A stretch of DNA of 26,248 bases from a virus, in the IMG/VR virus record IMGVR_UViG_3300031227_000359, positions 1 through 26,248 of that record, one strand, 5' to 3'. Positions within the stretch are counted from its first letter, which is position 1. Each line of letters begins with the position of its first letter. Shown one piece after another: positions 14,685 through 14,756 of this stretch. The notes under the pieces were generated by a model. That model saw nothing but the letters and a program-made list of their open reading frames with translations, made no database searches and was not told the DNA's origin. The position numbers and the translations under genes are program-made.

Positions 14685-14756
14685 TGGGGGAGGCAGGGAT
14701 CGAACCTGCGACCTCGAGGTTATGAGCCTCGCGAGCTACCACTGCTCCACTCCCCT
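14685..14756 (-). tRNA. tRNA-Met (CAU), initiator-like
   Basis: A full 72-base cloverleaf. The acceptor strands are 14756-14750 and 14692-14686, with discriminator A at 14685. The D stem is GAGC/GCTC, and the anticodon stem CGAGG/CCTCG encloses loop CTCATAA with anticodon CAU at 14724-14722. The T stem is GCAGG/CCTGC with loop TTCGATC. No CCA is encoded. Initiator hallmarks are present: an unpaired 1-72 position (A1.C72) and A11:U24, and the stretch from position 7 to 48 closely follows E. coli tRNA-fMet. The three G:C pairs of initiators are changed to A29:U41, G30:C40, G31:C39, and the T loop is elongator-like. CAU could also be a modified Ile tRNA. Confidence 0.9.

Follow-up and report, generated by a model that had tools for sequence, protein, structure and literature searches.

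Does the window, the whole 26,248-base stretch of viral DNA that was analysed, encode an initiator tRNA, how far does that tRNA depart from the initiators of cells, and why would a phage carry it alone? The record is a fragment with no larger genome behind it, and the genes it carries mark it as a tailed phage with a siphovirus-like set of tail genes (Table 1), further genes encoding a ParB-like protein, an XRE regulator, and neck and head-tail adaptor proteins. ARAGORN identified a single tRNA in the whole stretch, a Met(CAT) tRNA on the minus strand at 14756-14684. Rfam model RF00005 aligned to 14756-14685 over the full length of the tRNA, without truncation, at 64.9 bits (E 3.2e-12, against a gathering score of 29), flagging non-pairs solely at positions 1 and 72, and the predicted minimum-free-energy structure was likewise a cloverleaf. 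When read directly, the D stem consists of G10:C25, A11:U24, G12:C23 and C13:G22 and closes a 7-nt loop, AGUGGUA; the anticodon stem has A:U at 29:41 and G:C at 30:40 and 31:39; the variable loop is AGGUC; the T arm is GCAGG UUCGAUC CCUGC; and A73 is followed by CTC, with no CCA encoded. The tRNA-Met of the original prediction was therefore borne out, and every base listed there (A1.C72, A11:U24 and A29:U41) was present. Because an identical tRNA with identical flanks lies in a near-copy contig (IMGVR_UViG_3300005915_000295, 99.6% identical over the region), it is not a read error of one assembly.

Table 1. Features of the window discussed in the text, in order of position.
Feature	Position	Strand	Basis
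RusA	4470-4985		
RecT-like annealing protein	7279-8259		
Exonuclease VIII-like protein	8276-9148		
Downstream neighbour of the tRNA: small HTH protein, 108 aa, no confident family	14212..14538	minus	
Long perfect G+C-rich hairpin downstream of the tRNA, weak T tract	14620..14650	minus	sequence, fold
Initiator-type tRNA-Met(CAU) gene, 72 nt	14685..14756	minus	ARAGORN, Rfam, direct reading, MFE fold
Anticodon arm CGAGG CUCAUAA CCUCG	14715..14731	minus	sequence; identical in cellular initiators L220, L230, L057
Anticodon CAU	14724-14722	minus	sequence
A29:U41 in the anticodon arm	14729/14717	minus	sequence
Position 1, A, mispaired with C72 (14686)	14756	minus	sequence; Rfam flags non-standard pair
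Intrinsic-terminator-like hairpin with T-run, downstream of the XRE regulator	15293..15316	minus	
Upstream neighbour of the tRNA: HTH_3/XRE transcription regulator	15375..15662	minus	
Tape measure	19951-21366		
Major tail protein	22057-22581		

Covariance models were used to ask whether this tRNA is an initiator or an elongator. A model of 58 cellular initiators (R1), biased because its members were chosen by an arm pattern derived from the window, gave the window tRNA 94.3 bits; over 119 Planctomycetota genomes the same model gave initiators 76.7-104 bits and the best non-initiator read, an elongator-type CAU tRNA, 72.2. Two further models were drawn from Planctomycetota: the window tRNA scored 86.4 bits with a model of 20 Planctomycetota initiators with varied D loops (R3), compared with 72.8 for a model of 21 non-initiator CAU tRNAs, elongator or other, of that phylum (R2). 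For two elongator-type CAU controls from a single genome (L259 and L260 in G390) the order was reversed (85.7 and 83.3 bits with R2; 67.7 and 61.3 with R3). Since the window tRNA prefers the initiator model while the controls prefer the other, what we found was neither the best match to an elongator or Ile2 tRNA nor the pseudogene score that had been named as grounds for abandoning the initiator assignment. The purine 11:pyrimidine 24 pair characteristic of initiators is A11:U24 here, a pair found in 67 of 68 Planctomycetota initiators and in none of 21 non-initiator CAU tRNAs (set A2). CAU lies within a CUCAUAA loop, and A1.C72 leaves the tRNA without a strong Watson-Crick pair at 1:72; the three G:C pairs of the E. 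coli type (29:41, 30:40 and 31:39) are reduced to G30:C40 and G31:C39. Together, the covariance models, the elements at 11:24 and 1:72 and the near relatives among cellular initiators support the identification of the window tRNA as an initiator, in line with the earlier claim.

The A:U pair at 29:41 and the T loop had been put forward as departures from the initiator pattern. Scanning 84,980 species genomes with the arm pattern of the window, A29:U41 included, returned at least 117 matching contigs, chiefly from Planctomycetota, Lentisphaeria/Victivallales, Bacteroidales and Patescibacteria; among the matches listed, the cellular tRNA was mostly the sole tRNA of the fetched stretch. In 68 Planctomycetota initiators picked by model, rather than by this arm pattern, 29:41 was G:C in 42 and A:U in 26. 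When Pseudomonadota and Bacillota were scanned with a longer D-loop pattern that left position 29 open, the pattern-positive genomes with A29 numbered at least 38 of 103 in Pseudomonadota and only 1 of 39 in Bacillota. The T loop UUCGAUC occurred in 5 of 122 cellular initiators among the matches listed, most of which have G57, and one Planctomycetota initiator (L230) is identical to the window tRNA from D loop to T loop, a run of about 40 consecutive bases that includes the anticodon arm. Because both features are present in cellular initiators, this match among them, A29:U41 and the UUCGAUC T loop are, on sequence comparison, ordinary variation of cellular initiators, and the three G:C pairs in their strict form are not a defining initiator feature across bacteria. 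Calling the T loop elongator-like was misleading, as loops with G57, UUCGAUC among them, are frequent in cellular initiators, and the idea of an unusual variant mostly fell away, with A29:U41 and the T loop normal in Planctomycetota, Lentisphaeria, Bacteroidales and Patescibacteria. The ‘three G:C pairs’ rule holds only loosely at 29:41 in entire bacterial groups, and A29:U41 is therefore not to be taken as a phage innovation. Among 58 distinct viral initiators listed with a longer D loop (L261-L340), 29:41 was A:U in 33, G:C in only 16 and U:A in 9, the last of these being absent from the cellular initiators read. In Lentisphaerae bacterium WC36 (L068 7544-7976) we also observed a tandem array of four initiator tRNA genes, of which the fourth is visibly degenerate.

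The bacterial initiator tRNAfMet of AU/GC/GC form, which occurs in Planctomycetota, Lentisphaeria, Bacteroidales and Patescibacteria, shares with the window tRNA A11:U24, a mispaired 1:72, G30:C40, G31:C39, the CUCAUAA loop, A73 and the short D loop AGUGGUA; identity to the window tRNA reaches 64 of 72 bases (in L128). These bacterial tRNAs usually have C.A, U.U or C.U at 1:72, whereas the window has A1.C72, and they differ from it in the acceptor stem, which in the window is GGGGAG/CUCCCC with G3:C70. Among the initiators listed, A1.C72 recurred in one cellular MAG contig (L114) and in 7 viral loci besides the window, and 1:72 was Watson-Crick in 16 of 92 viral (nearly all U:A) and 2 of 70 cellular cases, while 2:71 to 7:66 were paired in 85-100% of the viral ones. 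The bases at 1:72 thus vary in viruses and cells alike while seldom forming a Watson-Crick pair, a pattern consistent with selection to keep this end open, as in initiators. A1.C72 itself is rarer than A29:U41 and the T loop, although a non-Watson-Crick 1:72 is, across the sequences compared, the initiator norm. Among the deviations of the window tRNA just the G-rich acceptor stem stands out: in the loci compared it was confined to the window, its near-copy and one further viral contig (L044, IMGVR_UViG_3300050821_009614), and its G3:C70 replaces C3:G70, which assists formylation in E. coli (PMC7949028). The L044 tRNA shares this rare stem and the D and anticodon arms (66 of 72 bases identical in a gapped alignment) but has C1.U72, and its fetched stretch has no detectable proteins in common with the window. 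An ORF beside that tRNA looked integrase-like by eye; Pfam gave it no family, and we do not call it an integrase.

Phage-encoded initiators have already been reported, in phiLM21-like prophages (PMC12429752) and in a huge phage, 1-SewaA, with fMet tRNAs (PMC10747093), and the window tRNA adds another one. Matches to the window tRNA region came from 95 phage records, and the short-D-loop form was found in 39 viral contigs, in 25 of which it was the sole tRNA of the fetched stretch. By its sequence, the tRNA-Met of Sinorhizobium phage phiLM21 is of initiator type and, like that of the window, is full-length, carries CAU and lies near structural genes; its sequence reads U29:A41 and G1.A72, and its host and overall sequence are different. 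The tRNA annotated as tRNA-fMet in Mycobacterium phage ScoobyDoobyDoo is also a full-length CAU initiator type and shares A29:U41, but reads A1.G72 and again belongs to another host and sequence background. 1-SewaA resembles the window phage in carrying a full-length CAU initiator-type tRNA and differs from it in host and sequence. In Ruminococcus flavefaciens SAb67, an AU/GC/GC initiator with G1.A72 and T loop UCCGAGU lies in a prophage-like locus (L049 6026-6100) that includes an HNH-type ORF and a terminase-small-like ORF, both judged by eye; a second, canonical GC/GC/GC initiator lies elsewhere in the genome, and viral contig L014 has the same tRNA as the prophage-like locus.

Within the window, the tRNA is isolated within over 800 bases of intergenic sequence, with the XRE regulator on one side and the small HTH gene on the other. 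The terminator-like hairpin downstream of the regulator points to separate transcription of the tRNA, and the predicted G+C-rich hairpin downstream is probably the 3' end or a terminator-like structure of the tRNA. The interval from the upstream hairpin (15316-15293) to the tRNA yielded no sigma-70-like promoter. A promoter-like minus-strand site, TTGACT-16-GATAAT, lies at 15351-15378, at the end of the XRE gene and just before that hairpin, where it could drive a very short RNA. Elsewhere, positions 13406-14200 encode a protein with many GGTI[LRWE]GG-type repeats, with a short direct-repeat array at about 13660-13897; contig L010 stops inside this gene, probably through an assembly break at the repeat. 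L010 is 99.6-99.97% identical to the window on either side of 17147-17697, with no match across it, and the protein at 16869-17282 is only 74% identical between the two, while L242 matches the window across 17147-17697 at 99.97%; this divergence resembles a local exchange of alleles just past the tail genes. Relatives at 71% DNA identity (L246 and L247) stop short of the tRNA region, the sole contig covering it being 99.6% identical, and the tRNA-Met of a distant relative (L248) was rejected as an initiator homologue of the window tRNA. With the tape measure and a conserved structural protein as queries, up to 392 Planctomycetota genomes, 296 from Bacteroidota and 288 from the phylum of a Victivallales MAG gave only weak matches, at about 30% for the tape measure and 38% for 24328-25044 in one planctomycete (G390), which is suggestive, though not proof, of a Planctomycetota host.

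Taken together, these data lead us to favour, with a probability of roughly three in four, an intact and probably expressed initiator tRNA gene that was acquired from a bacterial initiator and is carried by a tailed phage whose tail module is siphovirus-like. Two observations weigh against this reading: the lack of a recognisable sigma-70-like promoter between the upstream hairpin and the tRNA, and G3:C70 in place of the pair that aids formylation in E. coli. Host RNase P would process the tRNA and host CCA addition would then complete its 3' end; host MetRS would charge it with methionine, Fmt would formylate it, and IF2 would use it at AUG, GUG and UUG starts, so that it would supplement or replace the host fMet-tRNA pool in infection. 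Supplementing that pool is its most likely role, judging from the sequence, and the replenishment of fMet-tRNA during infection that had been suggested is plausible. Because the anticodon loop CUCAUAA has the normal form, the tRNA should read the same codons as the host initiator and start-codon choice should not change; the shift in start-codon choice proposed earlier found no support.

The gene might instead serve to evade host defence, the phage tRNA replacing a host initiator destroyed or modified by toxins such as VapC, which cleaves the fMet anticodon loop, or AtaT-type enzymes, which acetylate Met-tRNAfMet, with the altered acceptor end making a poorer substrate; we regard this as unlikely. 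VapC does cleave initiator tRNA, and phage tRNAs have been proposed to escape tRNA nucleases (PMC10264068); the anticodon arm of the window tRNA, however, is identical to those of unmodified cellular initiators and thus has no anticodon-loop escape mutation, and we rejected escape from anticodon nucleases by this route. For AtaT, changing C1-A72 to A1-C72 in E. coli tRNAfMet lowered acetylation, and G4G5G6:C67C68C69 matters (PMC7595197), where the window tRNA carries A1.C72 and A6:U67. Position 1 was A more often in the viral initiators listed (16 of 92) than in the cellular ones (3 of 70) (Fisher p 0.013, for sets chosen by pattern and with phylogeny ignored). Yet ordinary cellular initiators too can have a pyrimidine at 72 or A6:U67, and since pyrimidine 72 is normal in many of these, the case for AtaT evasion is weak. 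A wider form of the idea, in our estimate a long shot, takes lone initiator tRNAs as a recurrent phage class that departs from the host at 1:72 and 29:41 and would go on initiating despite toxin cutting or acetylation, A1.C72 being one such escape; Ruminococcus flavefaciens illustrates the contrast, with its prophage-like AU/GC/GC initiator and the host GC/GC/GC one.

A dependence of lysogeny on the tRNA, with the phage integrating into and breaking the host initiator gene while its own copy complements the loss, seems very improbable. The principle has been shown for tRNA-Lys in mycobacteriophages (PMC10865867), and the XRE regulator and the RecT and exonuclease genes of the window are as in temperate phages; on the other hand, the 3' end of the tRNA is not repeated elsewhere in the window, and no integrase was recognised among the scanned proteins, a weak absence in a 26-kb fragment. 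The reading of the tRNA as a functionless copy from the host, whether passenger or in decay, or as one that now serves as an elongator, is hard to credit, for while the acceptor stem G2G3G4G5A6G7/CUCCCC is unusual and an unselected 1:72 can drift, all stems are intact, the initiator-type A11:U24 is kept, 1:72 stays mispaired despite its changed bases and initiator-model scores lie well above those of elongators.

With supplementation of the fMet-tRNA pool as the favoured role, the wider interest of the locus lies in the fact that codon compensation cannot explain a phage carrying an initiator tRNA alone. Loci with a lone initiator therefore offer a clean way of testing what makes phages retain tRNAs, and could separate options such as a translation boost, toxin escape and the complementation of lysogeny.
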